DNA of 64,000 nt from assembly GCF_000010665.1 (NCBI RefSeq), contig NC_012796.1, positions 3,377,501-3,441,500 on the forward strand. The letters run 5' to 3'. The position numbers and the translations under genes were made by a program. A model generated the notes under the pieces. The model did not search any database. It was given only the letters and a program-made list of their open reading frames with translations, and was not told the DNA's origin. This DNA comes from Solidesulfovibrio magneticus RS-1. Its GTDB lineage: Bacteria; Desulfobacterota; Desulfovibrionia; Desulfovibrionales; Desulfovibrionaceae. Below are positions 46,681-64,000 of this stretch, in pieces. Positions within the stretch are counted from its first letter, which is position 1. The number at the start of each line of letters is the position of its first letter.

Positions 46681-46766
46681 GAGAAATAGTAAGCAAGTAA
46701 CGCTACTTTTTAAGTATCTTCGAGCAAATACAGAAATTATCAATCAAACCAAACAAAGGAGCTTGT

Positions 46767-47974: not shown

Positions 47975-47976
47975 AA

Positions 47977-48004: not shown

Positions 48005-48153
48005 AGCGACACGACAAGATGCTCAACAAGAGCATACCATATTTACCTTAACAACAAAATATATTTCGACGACATAATTGTCTCTTCGTAACCAGGCAAC
48101 GAAAGGCTCACAATAAGCACACTTGTTCAAGAGGTTAATCATGGACGGAGGAT

Positions 48154-48381: not shown

Positions 48382-48382
48382 C

Positions 48383-49429
48383 ATGTCCGTTCACATGCGG
48401 AAGAACAACGGCACCTACTACGTCGCCTATCGAAACGCCGAGGGCAACCAGACGACCAAGACATTCGGCAAGGGGCGGGAGGGACGCAGGGCGGCCCAGA
48501 AATTCGACAAGCAGGTCAAGGACCATGGCCCGGTCCCGCCGAGCACCCCTGAGGCCATCTCCGAAGTGGTGGCCGTCGCCGACAAGATTTATCTCGACCA
48601 ACTGGCCCAGATATATATCAACACGAGGAAGGTCGAAGGAACAACGGTCAAAACCCTTAACGAGATCAGGTCGTTCCTGAAGAAACACCTGATACCCGTC
48701 TTCGCTCAACGACCCATCGACGAGATTCGTTACGATGAGATATTGACGATCGTGGGCAAGGCCTACGCCGATCATTCCCCCGTCACGCGGGGACGGTATC
48801 TGTCCTACCTGAAGACCGTCTTTCAGTTCGGGGTCAAACAGGACCTCATTGAAAAGAACCCACTGCGCCACTGGAAGAAAGCAAAAGAGCACCCCCGTGA
48901 CACCAAGCTGACCGTCGCTGACCTTATGAAGATCAAGGCCGTCGCGGCCCCGCATCTGGCCTGGGCCATCGAGGTCGCCTGGAACCTGGGCGTCCGCACC
49001 GGGGAATCCGAACTCTTCGCCCTGAAATGGGCCGACGTCGACTGGGCACAATCGACCGTCAAGGTCTTCGCCACCAAGACCCAATCGGCAAGGGTGATCC
49101 CGATCTCCCCCGAGTTCATGGCCCGGCTGCGAGAGATGCAGGGACGCGCCAAGACCGAATATTTGATCGAATACGCCGGCCGGCCCGTCAAACAGTTCCG
49201 GATGTCGTTCCGGTCGGCCTGCAAGCGGGCTGAAATCCCTTACCATGTCGTCTTGTATGATATCAGGCACTTGTTCGCCACCACCCTTCTTCAGGAAGGC
49301 GGCGACTTATCGGCGGTGAGCAAGCTCATGGGGCACTCGTCGGTGCACATGACCGCGAACCAGTATTACCACCTGCTCGGTGACGAGAAGCGTCGCACCA
49401 TCGCCAAGTTGCCGAGCTTGAACGCCTAA
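48383..49429 (+). CDS. Tyrosine-recombinase integrase of the island
   Basis: 348 residues: an N-terminal arm/AP2-like part (MSVHMRKNNGTYYVAYRNAEGNQTTKTFGKG), a core-binding SAM-like domain (about 60-165) and a catalytic domain with Arg in GVRTGESELFALKW, a Lys strand, YDIRHLFATTLL (Asp replaces the usual first His), His in LMGHSSVHMTANQYYHLL and the nucleophile Tyr. It is about 3.4 kb from the tRNA-Arg half at 52822, the likely att site. Its last 41 codons are also present at 17067-17190. Confidence 0.92.
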   Translation: MSVHMRKNNGTYYVAYRNAEGNQTTKTFGKGREGRRAAQKFDKQVKDHGPVPPSTPEAISEVVAVADKIYLDQLAQIYINTRKVEGTTVKTLNEIRSFLKKHLIPVFAQRPIDEIRYDEILTIVGKAYADHSPVTRGRYLSYLKTVFQFGVKQDLIEKNPLRHWKKAKEHPRDTKLTVADLMKIKAVAAPHLAWAIEVAWNLGVRTGESELFALKWADVDWAQSTVKVFATKTQSARVIPISPEFMARLREMQGRAKTEYLIEYAGRPVKQFRMSFRSACKRAEIPYHVVLYDIRHLFATTLLQEGGDLSAVSKLMGHSSVHMTANQYYHLLGDEKRRTIAKLPSLNA

Positions 49430-49443
49430 GAGATAGTTTTGGC

Positions 49444-49477
49444 AGGGGAGTGGGCCATTTGGTCTACTCCCTATTTT
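49444..49477. terminator. Bidirectional terminator (copy 2)
   Basis: GGGAGT/ACTCCC stem between the convergent integrase and hemerythrin genes, identical in layout to 17205-17238. Confidence 0.5.
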
Positions 49478-49488
49478 CATTATCAAAT

Positions 49489-49893
49489 TCAAATTTCCTG
49501 AGACTTAAGATACATAAAAAAGTTTTGATCGACATATGGGATATGATTCATAATCCAAGTCACTAAAAAAGTAATCACATCAACCCGCAAAGACATCGAA
49601 TCTAAACGTTCGTCAACAATAAACCTATCGATGCTCACAAGAAAGTCATTATGACTAGAAATGTGTTCATTAAGCATAGGGTAACCCGAAGATCGCATCA
49701 AAGACTCTTCTTCAGAAAAATGATACCTAGCATATCTATACAAATCAACCAGCAACACACGAAGATCACCAAGGAAATATTCTTTTTCTATAGAATCCTG
49801 AAGTTTATTAATGCAAACAAAAAGTCTCTCATGCTGACTGTCTATTTTGCTGTGACCAACAGAAAGGTAGTCATCCCACTGCGCAATTGGCAT
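49489..49893 (-). CDS. Bacteriohemerythrin (copy 2)
   Basis: 134 residues, differing from copy 1 by only a few substitutions (FVCINKL, EYFLGD, VSIDRF). All diiron ligands are retained: HSKID, QHERLF, HFSEEE, HND and NHIPYVD. Neighbours and spacing to the GGDEF gene are identical. Both copies look functional, so gene dosage rather than decay is suggested. Confidence 0.93.
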   Translation of the reverse strand: MPIAQWDDYLSVGHSKIDSQHERLFVCINKLQDSIEKEYFLGDLRVLLVDLYRYARYHFSEEESLMRSSGYPMLNEHISSHNDFLVSIDRFIVDERLDSMSLRVDVITFLVTWIMNHIPYVDQNFFMYLKSQEI

Positions 49894-49959
49894 CAGCGCT
49901 CCTAAACTTTAGCCATACAGCCCAAATTAACGTGCACGCGGAAAAATTGACACATACTC

Positions 49960-51036
49960 TCACCATTCCGGCTCAACACTTATAACACCAAACTGAGCAA
50001 CATTATTCTTCCCAGTACCTTTTACATCGTACATAGCCTTATCCGCACAATTCAGAAGTTCATCCGACGACATACCCAACTGATACCCAGCGACCCCAAT
50101 AGACACCGTAAACTTAACTATTTGTTCTGCCAGCTTCCCATTTAATCTTGGTCTGAATTCATAATTTTGAACCGCCAAGCGTATTGCGTCAGAATGAAGC
50201 AATGCCTCATCGACAGAAACATCACAAACGACAACCAGTTCATCCCCTCCATATCGAGCTGCAAACCATCCATACTTCTCAGAATGAGCACTTATTATCT
50301 TTGCCAAAGTCCTCAAAACATCATCGCCGACCTGATGTCCATATGCGTCATTTACCTGTTTAAAATTATCAATGTCGAGCATCAAGACAGCAAGATGATT
50401 ATTATCTATCTGATTTTGTTCGACAGCATTACGAAGAAAAGACTCAAGATACCGACGGTTATGAAGGGGAGCCAAAAGGGGGTCAACATTAACCGTTTGC
50501 TCAAGAAATCGTGCTTTTCTTTCCCAGTCCTTTGCTTTTTCCTTATAATGCAATAACATGCTTTTCAGTAGAACTTTCAGTTTTGGCCTCAAAGCTTCGA
50601 GGTCATCAGCTTCGGAAAGCACCTCCAATGTCTCCCGCCCGAAGGTACTTAGCAACTTTCCCCGCTCTTGCTCTGAAGACAATGATTCGCTTATGAACTC
50701 ATTAACCACCATTGCAAGCGATGATGTAATATTTTTTTGAGACTCAAGCTCATCTTCAGCACTGACAGTAACCTGGTTACTTGCTATAAACATTTCAAGG
50801 TCTTCGATAATTTGATCAAAATTATTATCCGAAGAATCTTTTTTAGACAATCGACTAAATACTGTTTTTTGCATTGCCGATTTTTGTTCATCAGTGAATA
50901 TCGAGAAATTACCAACCAAATTCCTGACAAAAAGAACAACGGCGAGCCAGGATGGCTTACCCCCGCATCCAATCTTGTGCATTTCAGAACATAATTTTTT
51001 AATCGCGCAAGAATCGGTTTGACAATCGCTTGGCAT
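49960..51036 (-). CDS. GGDEF-domain protein, predicted diguanylate cyclase (copy 2)
   Basis: 358 residues, same layout as copy 1 with RYGGDELVVV. Substitutions cluster in the catalytic domain (FKQVNDAYG versus FKEVNDTYG, RPRLNGKLAEQIVKF versus KPRINGKLADGSIRF, DNNHLAVL versus DNSPLSVL), while the N-terminal sensor part is nearly unchanged. At nucleotide level 50104-50480 is visibly more diverged than its flanks. The Cys-rich N-terminus (CQTDSCAIKKLCSEMHKIGCG) is conserved. Confidence 0.88.
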   Translation of the reverse strand: MPSDCQTDSCAIKKLCSEMHKIGCGGKPSWLAVVLFVRNLVGNFSIFTDEQKSAMQKTVFSRLSKKDSSDNNFDQIIEDLEMFIASNQVTVSAEDELESQKNITSSLAMVVNEFISESLSSEQERGKLLSTFGRETLEVLSEADDLEALRPKLKVLLKSMLLHYKEKAKDWERKARFLEQTVNVDPLLAPLHNRRYLESFLRNAVEQNQIDNNHLAVLMLDIDNFKQVNDAYGHQVGDDVLRTLAKIISAHSEKYGWFAARYGGDELVVVCDVSVDEALLHSDAIRLAVQNYEFRPRLNGKLAEQIVKFTVSIGVAGYQLGMSSDELLNCADKAMYDVKGTGKNNVAQFGVISVEPEW

Positions 51037-51277
51037 ATATTCCCTTTAGGAACGTTTTGACATTAACTCTAATCTCTAACCCAATAGCACCGCCGACACA
51101 AGTACTGCATCTGGCAATACCGAACTCACCGAGACTGCCAGAGTTGGTTGTCTCGGGGAACCCCGTGCAATCCACTTACTGCTTTTCATGGAAACATTTT
51201 TTTTGTATTTTTTGAAATACGCAGTTACTCTATATTGGGTGTGACGTCCTTCACGATCGCCAGCAGGCGAGACAGAT

Positions 51278-52477
51278 ATGGCTTTGAAATATCAAATAAT
51301 GTTGCCGTTACTCATGCTCCTTGCCCTCCTCGGCACGTGGATGACGGTTGGCAAGGTCTATGCTTCAGAAATAAAGGAGAACTCAGGTCTTCTGGCCCAG
51401 CGATGGCCGCCACCCGATGCGTATCCCGCGAGACCAAAAGGTCCTCAACCCGACCCTCCACCAAGATTAGGTCAAGACGACAGAGGCAGGCCACCTGGCC
51501 CATGGCCACATAGGCCCGGCATGCCACCACCTCCTCCCCCGGGTCGTGGATCGCCTGATCGCCGACCGCCCGAACCTCCCCCCAGACTTGGGCAGGATGG
51601 CTGGAGAAGACCGCCAGGACCATTGCCACAGACGCCCGGCATGCCCCCTCCAAACTTGGGCTGGGGTTTTCCCGGATCACCAGCATCCGAACCAAGGCAG
51701 GACGGCAGGAGAAATGCTGTTGCGTCAGAGACAGAACAACCGGTCCAGAAACACATCCCCCCCGCAGTCATTCCCTCTGGGGAAACACCGGACCAACGCC
51801 GCGACAGTGAACAGACGTCCATGACACATCCAAAGCCCAACCCCAGCCCACAGCCTGAAACAATGGCAGACCTTACCAGAAGGTTCAGCAGTTCGCCAAT
51901 TTTTATCGCGACTGGCCTCGCTACGGGCTGCGCTGCAACTATTGTTTATTTGTATATCATGAATTGCAAACGCAAGAACCGTCGAGAAGAAACTCTTCGT
52001 GAAGAAGCTGCACAAACATCTTCACACAACTTTCAAGATCGAGTTAAAATGAATCACGAAGAACAGATCAGAAAGAATCTTGAGGATCAAAGCAATGCCT
52101 ATTTGCAGCGGGAAGCCGCTCGACGTCAACGTCAAAAGCACAATGAATTTCTTAATGAATCTTGGCAACGTGCTCAAAGAAAACGACAAGAAAAAAAAGA
52201 ACGAACGGAAACACATAACCACAAACAGAAAGGTAACAACCAACAAAAGACCTCGAGAACGGCAGACCATCGAGACATATCGCATGACAAAAAGTGGGCG
52301 TGTTCGATTCTCGGTGTCAATTTACGGGCCTCTCCAAGAGAAATAAAACGATCATACATTAAAATGATAAAAAAAACCCACCCAGACAAGGCAAGCTCTA
52401 TAAACAAAGCCACGGAAGCCGAGTTTCTGGAAAAAGCAAAGCTCATCAATGTTGCCTATGATATTATGAAGAAATGA
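51278..52477 (+). CDS. Membrane-anchored J-domain protein with Pro-rich exterior (copy 2)
   Basis: 399 residues, nearly identical to 19039-20238 with about nine substitutions, mostly in the cytoplasmic linker (INHEEQ, HKQKGNNQQKTS). Signal peptide, Pro/Arg-rich extracytoplasmic region, single transmembrane helix and C-terminal HPD-containing J domain are all intact. The gene is divergent from the GGDEF gene across a 240-bp conserved intergenic region that must hold both promoters. Confidence 0.85.
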   Translation: MALKYQIMLPLLMLLALLGTWMTVGKVYASEIKENSGLLAQRWPPPDAYPARPKGPQPDPPPRLGQDDRGRPPGPWPHRPGMPPPPPPGRGSPDRRPPEPPPRLGQDGWRRPPGPLPQTPGMPPPNLGWGFPGSPASEPRQDGRRNAVASETEQPVQKHIPPAVIPSGETPDQRRDSEQTSMTHPKPNPSPQPETMADLTRRFSSSPIFIATGLATGCAATIVYLYIMNCKRKNRREETLREEAAQTSSHNFQDRVKMNHEEQIRKNLEDQSNAYLQREAARRQRQKHNEFLNESWQRAQRKRQEKKERTETHNHKQKGNNQQKTSRTADHRDISHDKKWACSILGVNLRASPREIKRSYIKMIKKTHPDKASSINKATEAEFLEKAKLINVAYDIMKK

Positions 52478-52821
52478 AGTCGCAGACGACGAGCTGTTTT
52501 TCACACGTCGACGAAGGTGAACCTGGGAGCCTACCAGACATCAACGCCAGCGAGGTTGAGAGGACACCTCACTGGCATGCTCAGTGCCAAAATGGGGACC
52601 GTCTGCCCAAAATTTTACCCGCGCAACACAGCCTGACCAGAAAAACCCGCAAATCCGGGCCATCTCCCCAGCCGCCTGCCCGTACACGGGCCAACGTCTG
52701 CCCGAATGTTATCCAAAATTCCCTCGTTATCCTGTATGGTTGGCCAAGATGTTATCCAACCCGGTTATCCACATGATAAAAGGGGCCAGGCCGAAACAGA
52801 CCTAACCCCTTGAATTAATTC

Positions 52822-52866
52822 TGGTGCGCCCAGCAGGATTCGAACCTGCGGCCGTCTGCTTAGAAG
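52822..52866 (-). tRNA. 3' half of tRNA-Arg(UCU), second attachment-site remnant
   Basis: Same fragment as 20583-20627 with one T-loop difference (TTCGAAT). The anticodon TCT is followed by the T arm, acceptor strand and CCA. The sequence on its 5' side (GGCGAAGCGCC before TTCTAAG) does not supply a matching 5' half, so this too is a remnant. Confidence 0.88.
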
Positions 52867-53032
52867 GGCGCTTCGCCAAATGCTATCGACTGATATAATT
52901 GAGCTTTTTTCTCGAACGAGCCCCCTCCCCTGGATAAAATCGATCCTGTCTGGGACATTTCAGGTTCTCCAAAGGTTCTCCAAAATCCCGGTTATCCAGG
53001 TCTGGAGAACCTATTTCAGCGTTATCCGGTAG
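52856..53032. repeat. att-type repeat, copy 4
   Basis: It begins with the tRNA core CTGCTTAGAAGG, diverges for about 60 bp, then returns to the family sequence (GGATAAAATCGATCCTG, CAAAATCCCGGTTATCCAGG, GGAGAACCTATTTCAGCG, TTATCCGGTAGG). It is the most diverged of the four copies and probably the outer boundary. Confidence 0.8.
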
Positions 53033-53532
53033 GGAAAGCAGATGGACAGAGGAATATTAAATATATTAGACAGATAAAGCCATTACCCAAAAAGTTTCAA
53101 TTTGATGTATTTGAAACGCAAAACGAAGCAAGAGTGGTTCATTCATTAATGTTACGAACCTACGGATCATACTAGTACCATCATCGTTGATATTTATTCA
53201 ACAAATGGAACAAATGAATATCTGTTACCAACTCGACATGTAGTCAGACCTAAATGTTTCCATTCACAAGAAAATATCCAAAATTAAACCGTGAGTCTTG
53301 TTGTCTCGTTACAGGTTGATAGGAATTGTCCGCAATCCTCTCCCCAATTTTTTCGAATTGCCAGCAGTACGACCAGACTCTCTTGCTATTTAAGCCCTTT
53401 AAGGGCGTTACAAAAATTATTGGAAAAATTCCATACTCCCAGAATTCAACGGTTGTGTATCGTGTCCCCATTGCTCGTGCTGATTTTCTGGGGTATACTA
53501 AATTACATGAAAAATTAGTTCCCGGAGTAAAT

Positions 53533-54222
53533 ATGGCCAAAGTGCAAAATTCTGGCAAGAGCAGGAGAGTAGGAGAGCAGGAGAGCAGGAGAGCAGGAGA
53601 GCAGGAGAGCAGGAGAGCAGGAGATTTCGACGAAATGGACATGCACGTCAAGTCACGTGGGATCCACCACCGCATGAGTAGACGCAGAACGGAACAACCG
53701 AGCGAGAGAAATCTACTCGTATGGTTAGTCTCGGCCATGGTTGTTATTGCCATTATCGGGGTGGTTGTAGTTTTACAATCGGGTGTTAGAAATCGTCGTC
53801 TTTCTGAAACCGCTCTGCCCTCTGGAGTTGGGCCAGAACAGATGCGCCTCATCAATACCCCTTTCTCAGTTGGTATTGGTTCTGGCCAGATGCAGCTGAT
53901 CAAACAAAACACACCCTTTTTAGGTCTTTATTTGAGTGATATGTCTCCAGATTTAGCCGCACAGCTAAGACTAGCCATCAACCGAGGAGTCTATGTTAAC
54001 GACGTTGTTCCTTTATCCCCAGCAGAGACAGCTGGGATAAAACCTGGTGACGTCGTAACTCAATTGGACGGAACGGACCTGATCAAGTCGAATGTCGTAG
54101 GCATTGTTTTGTCTAAACATTTACCCGGTGACGTTGTACAAGCAATCATTATACGCAACCAAACACAGCTCGCAACAAATATAAGACTAGAAACAATGCA
54201 AAACCAGCTAAAGTCATTCTAA
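53533..54222 (+). CDS. Membrane-anchored PDZ protein with N-terminal octanucleotide tract
   Basis: 229 residues; the ATG follows CGGAGTAAAT. Residues 9-30 are a GEQESRRA peptide repeat encoded by eight 8-bp units. A single transmembrane helix (about 60-80, VWLVSAMVVIAIIGVVVVLQ) and a C-terminal PDZ domain follow (about 130-225, FLGLYLSDMSPDL, RGVYVNDVVPLSPAETAGIKPGDVVTQLDG). There is no protease domain. It resembles PDZ anchors of the DegS/MamP type without a heme motif. It should scaffold or sense proteins in the periplasm. Confidence 0.75.
   Translation: MAKVQNSGKSRRVGEQESRRAGEQESRRAGDFDEMDMHVKSRGIHHRMSRRRTEQPSERNLLVWLVSAMVVIAIIGVVVVLQSGVRNRRLSETALPSGVGPEQMRLINTPFSVGIGSGQMQLIKQNTPFLGLYLSDMSPDLAAQLRLAINRGVYVNDVVPLSPAETAGIKPGDVVTQLDGTDLIKSNVVGIVLSKHLPGDVVQAIIIRNQTQLATNIRLETMQNQLKSF
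53559..53622 (+). repeat. Octanucleotide tandem repeat (8 x GAGCAGGA)
   Basis: Eight contiguous 8-bp units, seven identical and the second with T for C, inside the first 30 codons of the PDZ gene. Because 8 is not a multiple of 3, gain or loss of one or two units shifts the reading frame. This is typical of a phase-variable locus. Confidence 0.95.
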
Positions 54223-54384
54223 ATACTTGCAACTATTAAACACAAAATCGTTTCCTTCGCGTGCACGTAATCCCTTAAAACAACAGGAGATATACTAACA
54301 ATAACTGCCACGATATCAACAAAACAATGAGGCTTAACACAACAAACTTCAACCGTTAACAACATACCCCAAGGATTTAATACT

Positions 54385-54714
54385 ATGACGATCATGTTCA
54401 GAGAAGACAATACAGGCGACAACAAAAAGACTCTACACATTGACCTTGCAGGGCATCTCGACATATTTTCGCATGAACAATTCAACAACTACAAACTATA
54501 CATTGACGAATGCAACAAAGTAGTTATTAATATGTCAGGTCTTGAACACCTCGACAGTAGTTCACTTGGATTGCTCCTCATGTTGCGAGAGCGTGCAGGT
54601 GGCACGACTGCAAACATTGAGATCATAAATTGCTCGCCTTCAATATTTAAGATATTCACTGCCGTGAAATTCAATCTCCTGTTCAACATAACTCCAAAAA
54701 ATCACACTTCATAA
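54385..54714 (+). CDS. STAS-domain anti-sigma factor antagonist
   Basis: 109 residues, one STAS domain: HIDLAGHLDIFSHEQF, then KVVINMSGLEHLDSSSLGLLLMLRERAG with the phosphorylatable Ser, and IFKIFTAVKFNLLFNI. In partner switching the unphosphorylated form captures the HATPase kinase. The genes directly downstream encode that kinase type and the matching phosphatase type. Confidence 0.9.
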   Translation: MTIMFREDNTGDNKKTLHIDLAGHLDIFSHEQFNNYKLYIDECNKVVINMSGLEHLDSSSLGLLLMLRERAGGTTANIEIINCSPSIFKIFTAVKFNLLFNITPKNHTS

Positions 54715-54787
54715 CAATGAACCTGACAAACTGCATGATGGACTAACGATCACTAAAGAACATCTTTAGACACAAACAGGAACTATT

Positions 54788-55732
54788 ATGACTACAAGCA
54801 TGACTTCTGACAGTCAGCCGTGTATGAACAAAAATATTCTTGTCGTTGAAGACGATAAACTCTCAGCCAACCTTATTGAGAGTTATCTTACTAAATTTGG
54901 TTACGCAGTTACCTGTGCAGCCGATGGCGAATCAGCTTGGAATATTCTGCTGCAAGACACTACGCGATTCAAATGCATCCTCCTTGATTATATGCTCCCT
55001 GATATTGATGGCATGGAAGTCTTGCATCGAATAAAAAAGGCTCCAGGCCTTAGCGAAATACCTGTTATTTTTGTAACTTCATTAAACGATGTAGAAACTA
55101 TTCAAAACGCGTTTGCACATGGAGCATTTTCATATCTAACAAAACCACTTGATATAAAATTAATGAAAAGCATAGTCCATGCTGCAATCGATAGATGTAA
55201 AATCAACTTCGACATCGCCAAGGACAGACAAGAGTCTGAACGATCACTTGAACTTCTCAATTCGGGAATTTTCCACTGCAGGACATTAGATGAAGCACAA
55301 TTGCTTGCAAAGACTCTTGCCATGGCATGCCCAGATTCTGGAAAAGTATCATCGGGTCTTCTTGAGTTGTTAATAAATGGGATAGAACATGGAATGCTTG
55401 ATATTACTTACGACGACAAAACAAAACTCGTACTTTCAGAATCATGGAAAGAAGAAGTTAATCGCCGACTAAAGCTTAAGTGTTATCTTGACAAAAAAGT
55501 TACAGTCTTATTTGAGCGAAAATTTGGCGAGATAGTACTAACAATCAGGGATGACGGTCCTGGATTCGATTGTCAATGCTATTTAGAATTTGATCCAGCA
55601 CGCGCCATGCACCCACATGGGAGAGGAATAGCTATGGCTTGCATGTTTAACCTGGACAATGTTGAATTCTTAGGAAATGGCAATACTGTCCGTGTAACAA
55701 TAAGTACTGGACACAACTCCCCCACTCTTTAG
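54788..55732 (+). CDS. Receiver-HATPase fusion (switch kinase)
   Basis: 314 residues. The receiver is at about 15-135 (VVEDDKLSANL, LLDYMLPDIDGMEVL with phospho-Asp, VTSL, LTKPLD). A C-terminal RsbW-type HATPase follows at about 190-310 (LLELLINGIEHG N-box, LTIRDDGPGFD, HGRGIAMACM). There is no HisKA, so it is a protein Ser/Thr kinase or anti-sigma factor gated by phosphorylation. It presumably phosphorylates the STAS protein encoded 73 bp upstream. The upstream histidine kinase is not in the neighbourhood. Confidence 0.88.
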   Translation: MTTSMTSDSQPCMNKNILVVEDDKLSANLIESYLTKFGYAVTCAADGESAWNILLQDTTRFKCILLDYMLPDIDGMEVLHRIKKAPGLSEIPVIFVTSLNDVETIQNAFAHGAFSYLTKPLDIKLMKSIVHAAIDRCKINFDIAKDRQESERSLELLNSGIFHCRTLDEAQLLAKTLAMACPDSGKVSSGLLELLINGIEHGMLDITYDDKTKLVLSESWKEEVNRRLKLKCYLDKKVTVLFERKFGEIVLTIRDDGPGFDCQCYLEFDPARAMHPHGRGIAMACMFNLDNVEFLGNGNTVRVTISTGHNSPTL

Positions 55733-55753
55733 CAATGCATTTACGAGATATAT

Positions 55754-56989
55754 ATGAATTTTAACATTACTAATTTGCGTGAATCGATAGAGTTTCTAAA
55801 CATTCTCTTCGAAAAAATTCCTTCGGTCGTCATGCTGGTCGACAAAGATTTAGTCGTCCAAGAAGTTAATGACGCATATCAGGTTATATTCGGGCTACCT
55901 CGCGAGCAAGCTGTTGGTCAACGATGTGGGAATGCACTCAAATGCGCTTTTGCAGTTACTGAGGAAACATTATGCGGCGAAACAAGCAACTGCGAGCAAT
56001 GCCTTCTTCGTCAGGCAGCTATTCAAACTCTCTTACAACAAGTCCCTGCTGATCAAGAAAAACTTGTTCACACTTTTTTTATCAATGGCTCAAGAGAGGA
56101 ACGTCATTTTGAATTCAGTACCCGCTACGTCACATTCCATGGCGAACAAATGGTGCTGGTAATTCTCTATGATGTTACAAAACTTGAAGTTCAAAAACTC
56201 GAATTAATAGACAAGCAGTCTAAAATCGACGAATCACTTAAAGCCGCAGGCATAGTTCAGCTCAGTCTTTTGCCTAAGAAACTACCACATGTTAAAACAG
56301 TCGACTTTTCATGGAAATTCATACCATGCGAAGGCATTGGTGGTGACATTTTAAATGTGGTACATCTTGATAAAGACAATATCGGACTTTACATGTTAGA
56401 CGTTGCTGGACATGGTGCTCCTTCAGCAATGATATCTGTCTTGGTCTATCAACTGATGAACTCACAAACTGGCATCCTCTTAGACAATACGACAACACCA
56501 CCGCTTATTCGAAAGCCTGAAGAAGTTTTGAACCTACTTGACAAAGAGTTTCCTTTGATGCGGTTCAAAAGACACTTCACTATAGTTTATGCGGTGCTTA
56601 ATCATCGCACAGGCACCTTAACCTATAGCAATGCAGCACACTGTTCACCGATTGTGTTAACTCAAGATGGCGTCATCAAGACACTTGACGTTTCCGGAAC
56701 GGTTATCGGCATTGGTGCGATGCCTTTTGGGCAACAAACAATTGCACTCTCCCCAGGCGACAAGGTCGTATTGTTTAGTGATGGCGTAGAAGAAATGGGT
56801 AATGCTGATAACGAATTATTCGGCAGCGAAAGACTTGCAAACACATTAATCGCACTTAGAGACACTTCGACGGATGGCTTGGTGCAAGGCATATATAAAC
56901 AAGTCATGCACTTTGCAGGAGGGCACCCTCCAGTTGATGATTTAAGCATATTAGCCTTTGAGTACAAAGGTACGACGAGCAGTGTTTGA
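55754..56989 (+). CDS. PAS-SpoIIE protein phosphatase (RsbU/RsbP type)
   Basis: 411 residues. The PAS domain (about 12-140) carries a Cys cluster (CGETSNCEQCLLRQ). A coiled linker (about 140-165) and a PP2C-type SpoIIE domain follow (about 170-405) with metal-binding motifs GIGGDIL, LDVAGHG, LFSDGVEEMG and PPVDDLSILAF. It should dephosphorylate the STAS protein when its PAS input is active. It lies 21 bp after the switch-kinase gene and completes a three-gene switch. Confidence 0.92.
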   Translation: MNFNITNLRESIEFLNILFEKIPSVVMLVDKDLVVQEVNDAYQVIFGLPREQAVGQRCGNALKCAFAVTEETLCGETSNCEQCLLRQAAIQTLLQQVPADQEKLVHTFFINGSREERHFEFSTRYVTFHGEQMVLVILYDVTKLEVQKLELIDKQSKIDESLKAAGIVQLSLLPKKLPHVKTVDFSWKFIPCEGIGGDILNVVHLDKDNIGLYMLDVAGHGAPSAMISVLVYQLMNSQTGILLDNTTTPPLIRKPEEVLNLLDKEFPLMRFKRHFTIVYAVLNHRTGTLTYSNAAHCSPIVLTQDGVIKTLDVSGTVIGIGAMPFGQQTIALSPGDKVVLFSDGVEEMGNADNELFGSERLANTLIALRDTSTDGLVQGIYKQVMHFAGGHPPVDDLSILAFEYKGTTSSV

Positions 56990-57071
56990 CGACAATCAAT
57001 AACCCACATCAAGATCGGTAGGTATCAATGACTGATCACTACAGACTTTAATAATTTTTGTCGAGGCCATA

Positions 57072-58316
57072 ATGATAATAAAAGTTAGTACAAAAAGTTT
57101 GAAAGTCGGGATGTACATATCAAATCCAGGGATGAGCGAAGTCTCGAATCCAAATGTTTTCTTATCTGAAGGTGAAATCACAACAGATTTAGTTCTCCAA
57201 AAAATCGCAAGTTCAAACTACTCAGACACCTTTATCGACACAGAGAAAGGTGTTTATTTCGCAAAGCACAAAAAGAAAAAACAGGAAATCGAAAGCCTAT
57301 TTTCATCAACTGAAAACCTCGACAACCTCGATCCCTCAGATGCACAAACATTCGATTGCATCCTTGAATCAATTGATTTTGCAGAAAATCAATACACCCA
57401 GTTAATCGAGGACTGCAAAAAATTAATTTTAGCTGCCAAAGAATCTGGGAACATTGACACATCGCCTACGTATAAACTTGTAGATCACCTCATAAACAAT
57501 GACAACCAAACAAACTACGCAATGATGTTCCTTTCTAATCTCAGAGGACACGACGAACACACATACACTCACTGCATAAATGTAGCATTATTTTCAACAA
57601 TGTTTGGAAAATACCTTTCTCTTGGACCCGAGAACTTAATACATCTTGGGTTTGCTGGATTTTATCACGATATAGGCAAATTAAAAATTTCTGATAAAAT
57701 TATCAAAGGAACGAAAAAACAATCTGCAAAAGATTTGCTCGAGTTCCAAAAACATCCACTTTACAGCTATGACATGCTCTCAAAACAATGCACGATTCCA
57801 GATGATATCTTGCGCGCAGTCTTAGAACATCATGAAAATTATTCTGGCACTGGATACCCATGCAAGAAACAACGAAATGACATATCACCCCAGGCCTCGC
57901 TAATAAGTATTGTAGACACTTTTGACTCGTTAAAATCAGAAAGATCCTACCGCATGTCTGTATCACCCCACAAAGCTATTTCCGCTATATTTCAATCTAA
58001 AGGAGCAGCATTCTCTCCATCTTTAGTAGATAAGTTTGTTAAATTTATTGGAATATATCCGAACGGGTCAATTGTTGTTCTAAAAAACAATAAAAAAGCT
58101 ATCGTCATGTCTCAAAACATAAAGTCTTTGCTGTATCCAGTGGTCCGCATTGTCCTAGACGAAAACAATCGGCACTGTGAACCACAAGACATAGACTTAT
58201 ACGAAGCCAAGGACATTGATGACAAGCATCATATTATTGATGTTCTTGATGCTAAGGATTGCAGGTTACATATTTCTGCATACATCAAAACAAAAGGTAA
58301 ATCATTAAAACTATAG
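57072..58316 (+). CDS. HD-GYP c-di-GMP phosphodiesterase
   Basis: 414 residues. The N-terminal DUF3391-like domain (about 1-120) is followed by HD-GYP (about 150-330): HTYTHCINVALFS, GFYHDIGKLKIS (HD), HPLYSYDML, EHHENYSGTGYPCKK (GYP motif in variant GTGYP) and SIVDTFDSLKSERSYR. About 80 further C-terminal residues follow. It degrades c-di-GMP or pGpG and so could oppose the two GGDEF proteins of the duplicated block. The gene follows the SpoIIE gene by 82 bp. Confidence 0.92.
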   Translation: MIIKVSTKSLKVGMYISNPGMSEVSNPNVFLSEGEITTDLVLQKIASSNYSDTFIDTEKGVYFAKHKKKKQEIESLFSSTENLDNLDPSDAQTFDCILESIDFAENQYTQLIEDCKKLILAAKESGNIDTSPTYKLVDHLINNDNQTNYAMMFLSNLRGHDEHTYTHCINVALFSTMFGKYLSLGPENLIHLGFAGFYHDIGKLKISDKIIKGTKKQSAKDLLEFQKHPLYSYDMLSKQCTIPDDILRAVLEHHENYSGTGYPCKKQRNDISPQASLISIVDTFDSLKSERSYRMSVSPHKAISAIFQSKGAAFSPSLVDKFVKFIGIYPNGSIVVLKNNKKAIVMSQNIKSLLYPVVRIVLDENNRHCEPQDIDLYEAKDIDDKHHIIDVLDAKDCRLHISAYIKTKGKSLKL

Positions 58317-59168
58317 TTCTCCACTGAATTACATTGGTAGATTAGTAGACTTTTCTCAGATAACTTACAACTATAATTCAAACTGGTACGTGCTCAGAAC
58401 TGCTTTAATGCCGATAAGACCAATTATATCTTGCCGATTTTTTTTACGGAATGGCGATTGCAAAATAACTTGAACTTGATCGATGTCATTGAGCAACTGA
58501 ATCAGATGTACTTCATAGCAGTATATAGCATTCCAGGGTCACCTACCCTCCTGCCCTAGAATATCCTCACAAGTTCCCACACACCATTTTAAAAGGGATG
58601 CTGTCCTGAGGTCCTGAGTGCCTCAGGATAGCCCTCAGGACAAAAAAAGTGTAATAAAAACATTACTTTATATACTACTTCCTGAGATCCTGAGGATTAT
58701 AGGGGGGGGTTCCCCAGGAGTGGTTTTGGGGGTCGGGGACGGAGGTGTTTTTGAAATCCCCTTTTTGGGGGTACCCCCTTTGATTTTCGTTCTAATAAAA
58801 ACGAAGGGAAACACGTTTTTCTAAAAGCAATACCAGCGCCACCTTCTCTAGCAATGCGCTAAAAAATCAAAAATTGCAGCTTCCTGCATCGCATAACGTC
58901 CTGGGATATCGCTAGTTTCCCTTAGAAACATTCCAGCCCAACTCCCCTGCCCCGGGCCAGCCCATCCCCTCGGACACCCCTCCCCTGCTCTCTACCGGCC
59001 CCGTCCTGGGGTTTTTCCAGTTGAGCCTTCCTTCTTGGCCCGCCCGCTCCCCAAAATCGCAGGGCGACCCCGCCCCGGCTCAATGCACGTTTTACACCGC
59101 CGCCCCGTGACCGGCCCCGTGACCCAGGTTACCTTTCCCGGGTCTCATCCCTAGTCCACGAGGTGAAC
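58317..59168. other. Non-coding region with origin-like arm and C-rich leader
   Basis: 58602-58705 repeats the origin-like words of 44.66-44.76 kb (GTCCTGAG, CCTCAGGA, AATAAAAACA, TTCCTGAGATCCTGAGGAT). 58686-58790 has G-runs (GGGGGGGG, GGTTTTGGGGGTCGGGGACGG) that could form a quadruplex. 58860-58890 matches 8030 and 58930-59160 is the C-rich leader. The short frame at 58618-58824 runs over these repeats and is not credible. Confidence 0.6.
58930..59160. repeat. C-rich leader repeat upstream of cassette copy B
   Basis: Same family as 36626-36845; the last 120 bp (GCAGGGCGACCCCGCCCCGG ... GACCGGCCCCGTGACCCAGG ... CCACGAGGTGAACATG) are the best conserved. Confidence 0.75.
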
Positions 59169-59393
59169 ATGCCGACCGACGCAAAACCGCACGGCGAGGT
59201 GCCGCTTGAAATTCTGAAGGAACTCGCTCAGCGGTTCCGGCCGATCGAGCACCTGTTTGACGTCATGGGCGCGGCGGATGCTGGCGTGCAGGGCGTCTTT
59301 GTGCGCCGATGGGCTGAAATTGGCACACATCTCGCGACAAGCTTTCGGAAACACCTCGACCAGATGGTCGCAATAGCCAGGAACGACGATTGA
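59169..59393 (+). CDS. Cassette B gene 1, hypothetical
   Basis: 74 residues after GAGGTGAAC. Paralogue of 36850-37107: central RFRPIEHLFDVMGAADAGVQGVFVRRWAEIGTHLATSFRKHLDQMVAIARNDD is conserved, while the N-terminus (PTDAKPHGEVPLEILKELAQ) differs and the C-terminal tail of copy A is absent because of an earlier stop. Helical, of unknown function. Confidence 0.7.
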   Translation: MPTDAKPHGEVPLEILKELAQRFRPIEHLFDVMGAADAGVQGVFVRRWAEIGTHLATSFRKHLDQMVAIARNDD

Positions 59394-59432
59394 AGTCCTT
59401 GCAAGTCATCAACTTAAACGGAGGAATAGAAC

Positions 59433-59630
59433 ATGATCGTTTTGGAATTTATCGCCGGAATCGCCTTGGGTGCTGTTGCTGGCGGCGTCATCAAGATGAT
59501 CACCCATGGCGGCGGTGCCATTGTTGGGCGAGGCAATGTTCGAAATGCGATCAACAAAGAAGAGAAGAACGTCCGTGGCCGGTTCAACGACCTGAGAGTC
59601 ACCAAGAATGACCCGAAGTTCTACGAGTAA
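59433..59630 (+). CDS. Cassette B gene 2, small glycine-rich membrane protein
   Basis: 65 residues, near-identical to 37111-37308 (MIVLEFIAGIALGAVAGGVIKMITHGGGAIVGRGN...). One hydrophobic helix precedes a basic tail ending KNDPKFYE. The ribosome site is GGAGGAATAGAAC. Conservation of the protein despite leader drift indicates selection. Confidence 0.7.
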   Translation: MIVLEFIAGIALGAVAGGVIKMITHGGGAIVGRGNVRNAINKEEKNVRGRFNDLRVTKNDPKFYE

Positions 59631-59659
59631 CCCCGAACTTCTCCGAAGGAGAACTTGCC

Positions 59660-60037
59660 ATGGACGACTGGCCGATCATTTTCAGCTACACCCGCGCCCA
59701 AGCCATCGCAGACGGCGTCCTAATCGACGTCACCGCCCAAGCTGCCGAGGTGGGCTTCAAGGTGCACACGGTGGTCACCGACCATCTATATAATACGTAC
59801 GTGGTGCCGCCGGCCGGACTGGAAGGCGAAGGGCAGTCCATTGAGGGCCGGCTTCACGATCTGCTCTTTCGCGCCCTGCTCGCGGCTAAGGCTATTAAGG
59901 ATAGCGACCGCGCTGAATTCGACGTCCTTTTCCTCATGGCTCCGGGGCGGTGGGACACGGTCCATGTGGTAGCGGCCATCGGCCCGGGCGACCACGGCGA
60001 GCCGGTCATGACCATCATGCTCCCCGAAGATGACTGA
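59660..60037 (+). CDS. Cassette B gene 3, DUF6573-like protein
   Basis: 125 residues, about 95% identical to 37338-37715, with the same ribosome site (AAGGAGAACTTGCC). Ends GPGDHGEPVMTIMLPEDD. It is convergent with the phage-type RNA polymerase genes across a 240-bp conserved repeat zone. Confidence 0.78.
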   Translation: MDDWPIIFSYTRAQAIADGVLIDVTAQAAEVGFKVHTVVTDHLYNTYVVPPAGLEGEGQSIEGRLHDLLFRALLAAKAIKDSDRAEFDVLFLMAPGRWDTVHVVAAIGPGDHGEPVMTIMLPEDD

Positions 60038-60279
60038 AATTATAGTGGGAGTGGGTTGAAGCGTCACGCACTTATTCCATACGATTTCGAGATGAAATTA
60101 CTGCGTGACAAGACCAAGAAAATACCGTCAAGTGGGGAAGCATGAATGAAATAAAATCATATCTTACGCAAAAGTGGAAATTAAAAAAGTCAAACCTCGA
60201 TTTTTTGAGCACACCAACTTCAAAACAGAGGCCAAAGTGGGAAATTGCAGATTTTCTAAAAAATGCACATCATCAAAAC
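60038..60279. promoter_or_regulatory. Conserved 3' repeat zone of cassette B
   Basis: GTCACGCA (60063-60070) and TGCGTGAC (60102-60109) form a perfect 8-bp inverted repeat. AAAGTGGAAATT, AAAAAAGTCAAACC, TTTTTTGAGCAC and AAAGTGGGAAATT words follow, matching the order seen after cassette A. The zone lies between the DUF6573-like stop and the RNA polymerase stop. Confidence 0.55.
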
Positions 60280-62139
60280 TCAATAGAAAAAGTACCTACT
60301 TTTCAAGACATCATTTAAATCCAGATTTCCAAAACTAGGCAAGTCTGGCAAAGAAACATCAAAAAATTGTTCAACTTGATCTTTGAATATTTTCAACTGA
60401 TTTTTAGAATGCATTTCACAAAATTGTTCTCTTATTATTTTTTGCAAAGCATTAACATGCGTAGTGTGGCAAGCAAAACTGTCGTGAACAGAGGCAATAC
60501 AATGTGGAGTGTTTTTTCCTAGACTTTTGACAAATGAAGTGATTATTTTAGCGGCATGTCCAGCGTCGAGCGAATGTATGTAATTAGGAGAAATACTCGA
60601 GCTTGTTTTCTTTTTTCGGAGAGACATTTCTTGAGTAGACTCATAATCTCTAAATTGAATTTTGTGCAATTTACCATCCATATACAAGCTTATTTCGTAC
60701 ACTGGGAACTGATAGTAAAAATTATGAACAGGCACACCGGCAGGATTGTTCCAGCAAAGACATTTATTGTTTTCGTTGAACAAAGACTGGACGCCTGTTA
60801 GCCAGTTTTTAGCTTGTGAAAATGCAGGACAAATATCTTTAATAGCGTCGTCAATCTGCTTTTCGATCTTGCGTGCTTTTTCAAGAAGTTTGATATCTTT
60901 GTCTTCTATCGAGTTCTCAGTAGCAAGTCCAATAACTTGAAACCAATTTTTTCCATATTTTTGAACCAAGGCATCGTGTAAGTTTTTTGAAGTCACTTTA
61001 GATCGCCTTTCTAGCCCTGCGCCGTATCCTGCTGAAATTATCGACTTCTTAATGAAACTACGATCAACAAATTCAGCGACAAATTTCCTTGTAATATCAT
61101 CGCTGAAATCGGTAGTCCCTGCAGAAGAATGCAATTTATCGACAACGTTTTGATAAAAATCTCCAGGAATTTCGCCATCAACAAGATTGACAAAAGGAGC
61201 AGATATATGGTCGCGCAAGAGAGCGGCATAATGCTGGAAACCATTGCAGGTTCCATCTACATAGACAGGAATATTTGTATATCGTTCTCCGGCCTTGGAT
61301 TGTTGGATATTCTTCCACTCAAAACAAAAAGCCAAAAAAGAATATCTATCTGATGCTTTCTGCCAAAACTCGAAATTTAAAATTGGGTCTTGAGCGGATT
61401 TAAAAATATCTCTCTCATTACTTTCAATCCACGAAATCATTTTTTCCTTTGAAACCTTTCCTGTTGGCGAACCATACTTTGAATAACCAAACACAGCAAG
61501 ATTCTCAAGCGAGGCACATTCGTTGTGTTTGTCAATATGTTTTTTCTCTGAAAAAACAAGCAAAGAACGACCTTCATCGTGACTTTGGGGGCTAATCTGC
61601 AAAACAGAAGAATACATCCTCCCGCGAAAGTCGAGATACCAGGGAATATAAAAAGTCCGATCTGCGAGGTCGTCAGCCAAGCTTAAGGTTTGATCCTGGA
61701 GTAATTTTTTTGTCAAATTGTTTCCATATGAAGTAGATCCATGAAAGTGCTTCATAGTGTTTAGTATTTTTTTATTGATATTATAAGGCGTTTGCTGAAG
61801 CAGATTCAGCGCTTTTAAAAACGTCTTGTCAAAACTGTTCTTTTTGTATTCAGAAATAATACATATTCTTTGCTTGGACGATTTGACATTAAACGCAAAG
61901 CTATGGTCTTCTTTTATCAAATACCCGCCACCACTCAAGTCCTTTTTCCATTCGTCTGGGCTACAAAACATTGGATACTTTCGTGGCTTAAACAGACTCC
62001 CTTTTGTTTTATTAGGGTCATAATATTCAGCAAATTTCTCACTGAACCCTATACGACGCGTGTCGCGACCACGTTGCTTGCCAAGTTTAATTATAACATC
62101 TTGACTTGAAATAAATTCATTCAAAAAAGTACCCGGCAA
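60280..62139 (-). CDS. Single-subunit (T7-like) RNA polymerase, catalytic part
   Basis: 619 residues from a TTG. All hallmarks of T7 RNA polymerase are visible: FYIPWYLDFRGRMY (cf. FPYNMDWRGRVY), YVDGTCNGFQHYAALLRD with Asp295 (T7 D537), DRSFIKKSIISAGYG with Lys364 and Tyr372 (T7 K631, Y639), CLCWNNPAGVPV (promoter-recognition region), ISPNYIHSLDAGH, and CIASVHDSF with Asp553 (T7 D812). The C-terminus LPDLPSFGNLDLNDVLKSRYFFY mirrors T7's PALPAKGNLNLRDILESDFAFA. All catalytic residues are present. The N-terminal domain is encoded in the overlapping frame upstream. AT-rich; no other phage genes surround it. Confidence 0.93.
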   Translation of the reverse strand: MPGTFLNEFISSQDVIIKLGKQRGRDTRRIGFSEKFAEYYDPNKTKGSLFKPRKYPMFCSPDEWKKDLSGGGYLIKEDHSFAFNVKSSKQRICIISEYKKNSFDKTFLKALNLLQQTPYNINKKILNTMKHFHGSTSYGNNLTKKLLQDQTLSLADDLADRTFYIPWYLDFRGRMYSSVLQISPQSHDEGRSLLVFSEKKHIDKHNECASLENLAVFGYSKYGSPTGKVSKEKMISWIESNERDIFKSAQDPILNFEFWQKASDRYSFLAFCFEWKNIQQSKAGERYTNIPVYVDGTCNGFQHYAALLRDHISAPFVNLVDGEIPGDFYQNVVDKLHSSAGTTDFSDDITRKFVAEFVDRSFIKKSIISAGYGAGLERRSKVTSKNLHDALVQKYGKNWFQVIGLATENSIEDKDIKLLEKARKIEKQIDDAIKDICPAFSQAKNWLTGVQSLFNENNKCLCWNNPAGVPVHNFYYQFPVYEISLYMDGKLHKIQFRDYESTQEMSLRKKKTSSSISPNYIHSLDAGHAAKIITSFVKSLGKNTPHCIASVHDSFACHTTHVNALQKIIREQFCEMHSKNQLKIFKDQVEQFFDVSLPDLPSFGNLDLNDVLKSRYFFY

Positions 62140-62674
62140 TACGCTTTAAGTTGTTTTCTATAGGTGACAGTTTTTCATCAACAGGCATAATTTCGCTAAT
62201 TGTTTGGCCAGATAAAATTTTGCTATCGACAAGCATTTTTTTTGTTTTTCGAAAAATTTCTTTAGCTATTCTTCCAACTACGTATTGATAGCTAACGTCA
62301 GAACTGTCTTTGCTTTTGTTGAGGCAAATATCAAGAGTTATCTTGGTTGTTATAAAAACCAAATATTTGCAATTACTATGCATGAAGCGCAGCATAAGTT
62401 TTTTGAATTTTTCCTTATGCCTTTCGTCTGCGATGCCAGATCCAATATGTTTAAATTTAACATCGAGATTCTTTTTTATATGCCCAGGGATGTTTTTCAT
62501 GGTTTCGTTGTAGAATGGTCCAAGCTCTTTTTCCCACAGCGAAGAGCTAGTGGTTGAGTTGTGTCCATTCAAAGGATTCTTTTTTGCAAGAGACTCGCTG
62601 AATAAATTGAAATCTATGTCGTTTAATAACTTCTCTCGCTCCATTTGAATTTTTCTCAGGCTATCGGAAGACAT
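62117..62674 (-). CDS. Single-subunit RNA polymerase, N-terminal domain (separate frame)
   Basis: 185 residues after a GGAGTTGTCAAG-type ribosome site. YLVFITTKITLDICLNKSKDSSDVSYQYVVGRIAKEI aligns with T7's AYITIKTTLACL...VQAVASAIGRAIEDEA, and the protein ends where T7's helix leading to IEMLIES would begin. It overlaps the catalytic frame by 23 bp; the frames differ by +1 at a run of six T (TACTTTTTTGAATGA on the minus strand). Skipping one T fuses RIAGYF directly to LNEFISSQ, giving an uninterrupted polymerase of about 797 residues. A sequencing or natural indel, a programmed frameshift, or a true two-subunit enzyme are all possible. Confidence 0.82.
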   Translation of the reverse strand: MSSDSLRKIQMEREKLLNDIDFNLFSESLAKKNPLNGHNSTTSSSLWEKELGPFYNETMKNIPGHIKKNLDVKFKHIGSGIADERHKEKFKKLMLRFMHSNCKYLVFITTKITLDICLNKSKDSSDVSYQYVVGRIAKEIFRKTKKMLVDSKILSGQTISEIMPVDEKLSPIENNLKRIAGYFFE

Positions 62675-62939
62675 CTTGACAACTCCTTTCTGTTTTGAAT
62701 ATTTTTACATGATTTCATTGGCGCTAGTTGAAGAAAAAATCAAAAATATCACGCTAAATAATTGCAAGGAGTGTTGTGCTTAACAATTGAGTACAACAAA
62801 GATCTATCTTTGTCGAGCAAGTTTACTGCATAAAGGACGCATTGGGCTACCTCCGCTCTAGATGGCAGTGATGACATGGTTTGGCGGTATTGATTCCGGC
62901 GACCAATCCACTGAGCCTGTGATTTCGGGTCAGACAATT

Positions 62940-63560
62940 TGCAAACAAGTGGTGGCCCAGCCCCTCGGCGTGCCGTGGCCGGTCTTAACTCACATCAGCA
63001 ATCACAATTGACCGAAAACTGCCACGAGGAGCAGATAGCGTTTCAGGATGTTCTCCTGTCCCTAAATCCAAACCTACAAACCCGATGCATGCTGAGCGGC
63101 GACGGTCCAGGGTGCGCTCGAAGCTGAGCTCAACGAGTCCTGTCCCGTCCGCCATCTTCCAGCGACTTGCCACCCCTAGGCAATATCCGGGTGCAGTTGT
63201 TGTACACGGCGCGCCGAGCGTCATGTCTCCACGTCGGGAATTCAGCCCGTTGCGCATAGTATCGACGAGATTTTTTCTCCACGTCTCCCCACCGTATAGG
63301 CTTTTGAGGACATCTCGGGAGAAATGACCCTTGACCGCGACCTAGTTAGCCGGGGCGTCCGGACAGGGCGGTGTTGTGGCGTGACCCTGCCCAGGCATTA
63401 CCAGCGGCCTCCTCCTGCGTCTTGGGCAGAGCTAAGGTGCCGCCCTTGTTAGCCTCGTGAACCGCGACGCGACGGCGACAACTACGCCGGTGTCTGTCCA
63501 CGCGTGCTCGCGCCCCCGTGTCGGCCTGATCTGACCCGCTAGAGGTCCTTTGCAATTTAC
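62940..63560 (-). pseudogene. Degenerate IS1182-family transposase
   Basis: The plus strand reads GTGGCCCAGCCCCTCGGCGTGCCGTGGCCGG and GGAGCAGATAGCGTTTCAGGATGTTCTCC, collinear with 34643-34745 of the intact IS1182-type element. Further matches run through the regions equivalent to the KGYFSRDVLKDL and VHEADKG coding segments. Many indels and stops break it, and the segment beyond the first Asp is missing. Confidence 0.82.
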
Positions 63561-63739
63561 TCAGATCGTCCGCAGATGGCTAGAATTTTGGGTTTTATGC
63601 TTTTGATATTTTCAACTACTTGTTTTTATTGTACTAATTTTTTCATCCGGGGGACTAATAGAAAGACTGTCCATCGCGAAAAATCTGCGAAAAGGCCGGT
63701 AACACCGAGCCCATTCACAATGCTCTGCACAAGATTTTG

Positions 63740-63798
63740 GCAGAGCCTTGCAAATTGATTGATTTATTCAATTAATTGCAAGGCTCTGCTTTTTTTTT
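63740..63798 (+). terminator. Strong intrinsic terminator
   Basis: GCAGAGCCTTGCAA pairs perfectly with TTGCAAGGCTCTGC (14 bp) around an AT-rich loop that has its own weak TTGA/TCAA pairing, followed by nine T. What transcript it ends is unclear. Confidence 0.85.
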
Positions 63799-63853
63799 GC
63801 AAGCAACCTTGATTAATACATTCAATAATCAAACGTAAATGAGGAGATGTCTC

Positions 63854-64000
63854 ATGTCAAATAAACTCCGGACCATCACGCCGGACCAGTTGAAAGAAAT
63901 GGCCATCGATTTCATCAACAATCACAAGTCAAGCGATGGCACGACTATTGGAGTAGACATTAAAGACATGTGTTCGCATTTCTCTGTTTCAAAATCTATT
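63854..64000 (+). CDS. HTH regulator, start only (cut by window edge)
   Basis: 49 residues are visible from an ATG after GAGGAGATGTCTC. ITPDQLKEMAIDFINNHKSSDGTTIGVDIKDMCSHFSVSKSI matches the N-terminal design of 40326-40763 (VEVDVKDASNAFNVSTSI), so an AbrB-like C-terminal half is expected beyond the edge. Confidence 0.65.
   Translation, partial: MSNKLRTITPDQLKEMAIDFINNHKSSDGTTIGVDIKDMCSHFSVSKSI

Follow-up and report, generated by a model that had tools for sequence, protein, structure and literature searches.

We examined a stretch of 64,000 nucleotides from the genome of Solidesulfovibrio magneticus RS-1 (NC_012796.1, positions 3,377,501 to 3,441,500), called the window below, in which a phage-type RNA polymerase gene lies within an integrative element that we refer to as element B. 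T7-type polymerases are regarded as phage or organelle enzymes. An earlier note on this DNA had read 60280..62674 as one gene for a T7-like single-subunit RNA polymerase; instead, the region consists of two overlapping open reading frames (ORFs) in separate frames, ORF1 and ORF2, and a single chain is not encoded as sequenced (Table 1).

The identity of ORF2 was assessed by profile, sequence and structure comparisons. The profile search that the earlier note had called for returned strong matches to PF00940 in Pfam (E 6.5e-71) and to phrog_414, 'RNA polymerase', in PHROGs (E 3.7e-118), and in the PDB the sequence matched the polymerases of T7 and of mitochondria (E 2e-38 to 3e-36). On the T7 enzyme, ORF2 extends from about residue 211 through the C-terminal end. 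The four catalytic residues that had been named (D295, K364, Y372 and D553) were all retained on realignment, being invariant among ORF2 and five polymerases (three phage records and two phage-like plasmid records); a 149-sequence alignment equated them with T7 D537, K631, Y639 and D812 in motifs A, B and C. The C-terminal FFY end named in the earlier note was also found, as YFFY. Of the 51 columns at which at least 95% of the 149 relatives agree, ORF2 retained 46, the five lost columns corresponding to T7 G213 (a gap), D471, R478, M635 and M696. The chance of an open frame of 619 codons at the composition of ORF2 was about 2e-20. The AlphaFold model of ORF2, whose input included 19 relatives, reached a predicted local distance difference test score (pLDDT) of 82.9 and a predicted template modelling score of 0.83 and showed the palm-fingers-thumb fold; its top Foldseek match was T7 RNA polymerase (E 9.4e-30), with mitochondrial polymerases also among the top matches. 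A search of the same genome (5.3 Mb) revealed no second polymerase of T7 type. These results demonstrated that ORF2 is a genuine T7-type polymerase sequence with a retained catalytic core.

ORF1 starts with an ATG preceded by AGAAAGGAG. Immediately upstream, the frame of ORF2 is closed. The earliest codon at which ORF2 could start is a TTG, with no Shine-Dalgarno sequence to be seen, and no ATG occurs before codon 57. Among the 168 relatives examined, 149 had an ORF of 706-896 residues counted from the first ATG, and the remaining 19 comprised three in one frame, six cut by a contig end and ten in two frames. ORF1 and ORF2 were searched and folded separately, not as a joined chain. ORF1 gave nothing significant in Pfam, in PHROGs or by tblastn against phages; hhalign to the polymerase N-terminal domain yielded a probability of 0.2%, and the polymerase hidden Markov model (HMM) yielded 0.8 bits, a score exceeded by 4 of 200 shuffles. 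The best weak alignment was collinear, covering HMM positions 75-119, with ORF2 beginning at position 194. The AlphaFold model of ORF1, built without an alignment, was all-helical and of low confidence (pLDDT 52), and Foldseek found nothing significant with this low-confidence model. Among 21 genomes searched, ORF1 matched its own genome alone. By its place and length, with no support from the similarity tests, ORF1 is probably, but not proven to be, the N-terminal part of the polymerase.

The earlier note had placed the polymerase outside a recognisable phage, with no capsid, terminase or DNA polymerase gene in the window, and this description held. A panel of 29 T7-type proteins, including capsid, terminase, DNA polymerase, primase-helicase, exonuclease, portal and tail proteins, gave no tblastn match in the window or in the 40 kb on either side (144 kb in total, E 1e-4), and no T7-like prophage was found in these flanks. 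The same panel matched at least once in the flanks of 67 of 80 other bacterial polymerase loci (the best 80 of the 179 that matched the polymerase) and had no match in the other 13. PHROGs recognized four of ten element proteins (two integrases, a weak excisionase or helix-turn-helix match and a primase/helicase) and nothing in the other six; it found no packaging or capsid-remodelling gene among these ten, several small ORFs lying outside that set. The surroundings of the gene are those of a tRNA-Arg-anchored element with an integrase and a Cch/DUF927-type helicase. Collectively, the results indicated that the polymerase is cargo of a tRNA-Arg integrative element and not of a T7-like prophage.

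Element B stands in tandem with a sister, element A, and an integrase near a duplicated tRNA end was found in B. Each imperfect tRNA copy is preceded by about 230 bp with roughly 90% identity to the right end of B, and a search with the 3' 40 nt of tRNA-Arg, allowing up to six mismatches, found the intact gene alone. The two elements were 86.9% identical in the cassette region (36721-37797 in A), 87.7% in the helicase region and 86.6% in the integrase region, and the 132-residue protein of B was 43% identical over part of its length to a protein of A (40239-40763). The minus-strand gene between cassette and helicase differed, being the polymerase in B and an AAA+ activator in A, and the transposase relic was the only similarity of at least 60 nt between the slot of B and element A. 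The small-gene cassette, the transposase relic and the signalling genes that had been described as neighbours of the polymerase were all confirmed. In base composition the polymerase ORFs differ from the host. The G+C content was 36.9% in ORF2 and 34.9% in ORF1, compared with 58.3% in the adjoining cassette and 67.8% in the chromosomal stretch 74918-83314; other cargo was AT-rich too (39.3% G+C in the signalling genes of B and 35.1% in the slot gene of A). The match to NF047345 (Cch-type helicase) had an E value of 1.3e-17 and was far below the cut-off of the model. Element B shares a tyrosine integrase, a small helix-turn-helix protein, a Cch-type helicase and duplication of a tRNA 3' end with tRNA-anchored Cch/DUF927 elements, whose replication module resembles that of staphylococcal cassette chromosomes and phage-inducible chromosomal islands; it differs from them in that no packaging genes were seen among the tested proteins and that a polymerase (in B) or an AAA+ activator (in A) is carried.

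Table 1. Features of the polymerase locus and of the integrative elements (window positions; values above 64000 lie beyond the window)
Feature	Position	Strand	Evidence
ORF2, catalytic part of T7-type single-subunit RNA polymerase, 619 aa	60280..62139	-	Pfam, PHROGs and PDB matches, residues, AlphaFold/Foldseek
ORF1, 185 aa, position and length fit the polymerase N-terminal domain, different frame	62117..62674	-	ORF list; only weak collinear alignment
ORF1/ORF2 overlap, site of frame change, holds homopolymer run	62117..62139	-	sequence
Variable slot of B with polymerase, 40.6% G+C	60110..63852		
Element B, part in window (whole element 52868-74049, 21.2 kb, end = L003 10049)	52868..64000		tRNA copies, gene content
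Left attachment site of B, imperfect tRNA-Arg(tct) 3'-half copy, 9/47 mismatches	52822..52867		
Intact tRNA-Arg(tct)	74003-74079	-	tRNA search beyond window
Further imperfect tRNA-Arg 3'-half copy, 7/47 mismatches	20583..20629		
Sister element A, tandem with B	20630..52867		similarity to B, tRNA copies
Right-end remnant of third element	17067-20629		similarity and tRNA copy
Left cargo of B: PDZ, STAS, response regulator, PAS-SpoIIE phosphatase, HD-domain (HD-GYP-type)	53326..58316	+	
Small-gene cassette: 59163-59393, 59433-59630, 59660-60037 (DUF6573)	59039..60109	+	
Transposase relic, 70% identical to 34643-35174 inside open transposase ORF 34518-35873	62953..63509		
Start of gene for 132-aa protein, no family assigned, continues to 64252	63854..64000	+	
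DUF927/Cch helicase of B (beyond window)	64536-67448		
Small XerC-like protein of B (beyond window)	70050-70607		
Small helix-turn-helix protein of B, weak excisionase-type match (beyond window)	70723-70989		
Integrase of B (beyond window)	70979-72037		
Hemerythrin and GGDEF genes of B, after integrase, before tRNA-Arg	beyond window		
Slot gene of A: sigma-54-activator-type AAA+ protein, 600 aa	38041..39843	-	PF00158 E 1e-37
DUF927/Cch-type helicase of A, 87% identical to that of B	41727..44639	+	
Integrase of A, 98% identical to that of B	48371..49429	+	

Three further observations were made on these elements and on related islands. Intergenic stretches at 58604-58696, 44671-44927 and L003 3558-3735 contain repeated TCCTGAGG words and their inverts; these stretches, after the helicase gene or left of the cassette, are possibly a replication origin. 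In element A, a row of genes at 32146-34482 encodes a WYL-type regulator and a DEDDh-type exonuclease (both PADLOC matches) and a 252-residue protein without an assigned family, and is perhaps defence cargo. Two related islands (L239 and L240) each encode two proteins of about 310 residues near DUF6573 genes, and by eye these proteins look radical-SAM-like.

The earlier note had further suggested that the element may run a private transcription system from a promoter of about 20 bp repeated in front of its target genes. The search for such a promoter used 20-mers, a threshold of 15 matches and shuffled controls. In the 13 intergenic regions of element B, the best 20-mer was present in 3 regions, compared with 2 in each of eight shuffles, and the summed 20-mer score lay inside the shuffle range. 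In the positive control, the T7 promoter was recovered in 14 of 22 T7 intergenic regions (1-2 in shuffles), and it was also recovered in 7 of 14 regions in the run on further loci. The same method gave nothing clear in 12 further loci, including the phage-marker loci L100, L052, L046 and L043; repeated promoters would be expected in these four, so the method is not sensitive on stretches of this kind and the negative result is weak evidence. Such promoters vary from one phage to another, as a report on the T7-like phage LUZ100, which has temperate features, shows (PMC10134795), so the motif would not be predictable from that of T7. A search for T7-like octamers left a single site, at 58689-58703, which was dropped, as it lies within the repeat region common to element A. 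The suggested private system is left unsupported by the split gene, by the lack of a standout element of about 20 bp and by a sister element without the polymerase. Within element B, nothing in these results supports a private regulon, and the promoter search is weak evidence against one.

The polymerase matched 2625 phage records, all at less than 60% identity (25-28% in the 30 listed), 4 of 72,556 plasmids, and 6 of 288 genomes of the host family, 6 of 348 of the order and 3 of 395 of the phylum, the host being included in each of these overlapping sets. No polymerase of this type was found in the 13 congeners searched, and exact peptide patterns confirmed no close relative in genome or viral collections. 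The best long matches in the family, order and phylum sets showed 30-32% identity, and a piece of 153 residues was 35% identical to G016, whose polymerase, also in two frames, is on a contig of 4.7 kb that has no T7-type markers. In a quick tree of 107 rows, the end branch of the window polymerase measured 4.21 changes per column (median 0.58), with a best identity of 30% (L058). The tree gave the polymerase no supported position, the method being quick and the branch very long. In the same tree, the rows of G055, a genome of the host family, and Desulfovibrio sp. MES5 (L085) were identical.

Compared with the RNA polymerases of T7 and the Autographiviridae (PF00940, phrog_414), the window enzyme has the same fold, motif A, B and C residues, C-terminal FF-aromatic end and expected total length of about 800 residues, but it is at most about 32% identical over long stretches, lies in two frames and has no phage context. 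T7-like loci of the same host family (G097, G230 and G055; L036-L040) carry the same enzyme family. DNA polymerase, primase, exonuclease and endonuclease genes stand near a whole polymerase gene in G097, G230 and G055, whereas the window has none of them; G097 and G230 additionally carry portal and capsid genes.

Natural T7-type polymerases encoded by two genes were observed in seven IMG/VR viral contigs (L161, L162, L172, L185, L194, L197 and L198), where the polymerase is split into two overlapping genes. The N part comprises 244-259 residues from the first Met and ends near T7 residue 300, and the C part is open over 554-579 residues, with the same frame relation in all seven. The stop and start overlap as TGATG, TAATG, ATGA or TTGA, with an SD-like (Shine-Dalgarno-like) GTGAGG in front. 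These contigs form one exclusive FastTree clade (support 1.0). A search of open-licence papers gave nothing specific on such split polymerases.

Type I restriction genes adjoined several of the polymerases without phage markers. We found hsdR in 8 of the 13 marker-free loci and in none of the 67 loci with markers (Fisher 4.4e-8), where marker-free means no kin of the 29 T7-type proteins by tblastn. Three of the five hsdR queries were taken from the hsdR-bearing loci themselves, which favours their detection; three of the 13 marker-free loci (L071, L091 and L108) are contigs shorter than 7 kb, and four of the 67 marker loci (L077, L105, L109 and L116) rest on one marker. One of the eight hsdR loci is from Nitrospina (L058) and the others are from sphingomonads (L051, L062, L065, L071, L075, L097 and L103). 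Six of the sphingomonad loci fall in one tree clade, and L097, outside the tree, is 94-95% identical to two of them; since these seven are copies of one kind, the eight loci represent at least two origins, not eight. Pfam confirmed HsdR and HsdM in both L058 and L075, and also HsdS in L075. In L062 and L051, the polymerase follows hsdR after 47-49 bp on one strand. The hsd-adjoining island polymerases are in one frame, except for L097 (two frames). The polymerase of L103 (Sphingomonas abaci) was 63-72% identical to the other copies compared whole, and the hsdR next to it is a different one (22% identical). The pairwise ratio of nonsynonymous to synonymous divergence (dN/dS) was 0.11-0.21 among the seven sphingomonad copies, many dS values being saturated (1.3-2.1), and 0.11 and 0.14 in two close pairs (dS 0.22-0.23). 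Judged from these ratios, the sphingomonad polymerase copies are under purifying selection.

The Nitrospina island (L058) contains hsdR, hsdM, an hsdS-like gene, a whole polymerase of 823 residues and an integrase, and it is bounded on one side by a tRNA-Arg(ccg) and on the other, at a distance of 22.7 kb, by a repeat of the first 41 nt of that tRNA. These results indicated that phage-type polymerases recur in defence-type islands in the data. Such type I restriction loci lack T7-type phage genes, as the window does, and L058 also shares with it an integrase and a tRNA-Arg at the island end; they adjoin hsd genes, whereas the window polymerase is split and no match to hsdR or hsdM was found in element B. 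Kin of the window's element carry hsdM-hsdS-hsdR without a polymerase (G215/L236 and, in the same genome, L237). Of six further stretches from genomes of a single Sphingomonas genus, four had the polymerase, all four with phage markers; L261 had a phage primase without a polymerase match, and L262 had neither. No link between type I restriction loci or satellites and such polymerases was found in a search of open-licence papers, and none was found in PMC5512222.

The sphingomonad loci carry a serine resolvase downstream of the polymerase; this serine-recombinase link, also seen in L081 and L094, is not common to the window. A conserved block, GTCCCAATAGGGTTGAC with further bases, lies upstream of the serine resolvase in L051, L062, L065, L075, L092, L097 and L103. 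Its 17-mer was present with at most one mismatch in six of these seven loci, not in L062, and the block is perhaps a resolvase site. Another sequence, CCCCTTYWTATAGAG, was found directly behind the sphingomonad polymerases. Loci L051, L062, L071 and L092 have it with 0-1 mismatch and L103 has it with 3; it was not found in L065, L075 or L097. It was rejected as a regulon, with at most one match (0-1 mismatch) per genome in five genomes and weaker matches no commoner than in the reversed control. Two other loci were recorded. T7 lysozyme inhibits T7 polymerase, and in L109 (Pleionea sp.), which has a whole phage-type polymerase, the sole panel match was to the T7-lysozyme family. An 11.4-kb plasmid of Peribacillus frigoritolerans (unnamed3, L030) holds pieces of a phage-type polymerase annotated as two coding sequences and had no match to the T7-type panel.

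Taken together, we consider it reasonably probable (roughly 60%) that the window holds a T7-type polymerase captured long ago as element cargo and now probably silent. The gene would have been taken up from a podovirus-like source and would ride as accessory cargo in a variable slot of an element that would insert at the 3' end of tRNA-Arg through its own tyrosine integrase. Transcription from its own promoter would once have been independent of the host polymerase. The polymerase is probably silent today, given that its coding sequence is divided between two frames and that ORF2 lacks a good start. Since element A is without the polymerase, the element would not need it, and the polymerase is apparently dispensable to its element. 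Two points weigh against this reading. The branch is 4.2 changes per column long and 46 of 51 conserved columns are still kept, which suggests long selection, so that any break would be young and the frame change would be recent, unreal or bridged; in addition, ORF1 was not demonstrated to be homologous to the N-terminal domain. An error of sequencing or assembly, with the gene whole in the living strain and split in appearance alone, would fit a frame change at a homopolymer run and a protein that keeps nearly all invariant sites. The run is short, however, the long adjoining helicase, integrase and signalling genes read uninterrupted, and some other copies, such as L097, are in two frames too; an error is therefore a possibility to be kept in mind but an unlikely one. 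Active private transcription, in which ORF1 and ORF2 would be joined by programmed frameshifting or work as two chains on promoters of the element or others, appears quite doubtful. The catalytic core is intact, the homopolymer run lies within the ORF overlap, two-gene polymerases exist in the viral clade, and the promoter search was of limited power. In that clade, however, the split place differs (N parts ending at about 300, ORF2 beginning at about T7 211), as does the frame relation; ORF2 has neither an ATG nor a Shine-Dalgarno sequence at the junction, no repeated promoter was found in element B, and the core genes are common to the polymerase-free sister.

That the gene is left over from a T7-like prophage, or from a phage satellite, is very improbable. 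Its family matches are phage enzymes, three genomes of the same family (G097, G230 and G055) have polymerases beside T7-like genes, and Cch/DUF927 helicases occur in satellites; against it stand the unmatched panel over 144 kb, the six of ten element proteins with no PHROGs match, and boundaries that are explained by the tRNA-Arg copies and the sister element. Phages commonly shut off host transcription, and an island polymerase might keep defence genes transcribed under such shut-off or act on phage templates. The hsdR distribution, the spacing of hsdR and polymerase in L062 and L051 (47-49 bp, same strand), the dN/dS values of the seven sphingomonad copies, the Nitrospina tRNA-Arg island with its restriction genes and integrase, and the hsdM-hsdS-hsdR genes in kin of the window's element all point this way. 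Element B itself has no hsdR or hsdM match and its copy is split, the hsdR loci yielded no common promoter, and their origins number at least two, not eight, with three of the five queries drawn from those loci; as an explanation of the window gene, a defence accessory seems rather improbable. A broader proposal is that polymerases repeatedly left phages and settled in defence islands anchored at tRNA genes, in many cases next to type I restriction systems, and provided transcription immune to phage shut-off, the window gene being the most diverged member, now decaying or working as two chains; we regard it as speculative and, on present evidence, hardly probable.

With captured and probably silent cargo as the preferred explanation, the results in the window correct a likely over-reading, in that the polymerase is split cargo that is apparently dispensable to its element. 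The promoters of the very diverged polymerases of such islands may be orthogonal to existing tools. The selected island copies beside restriction genes, with at least two independent acquisitions, suggest that host-independent transcription may have a use outside phages.

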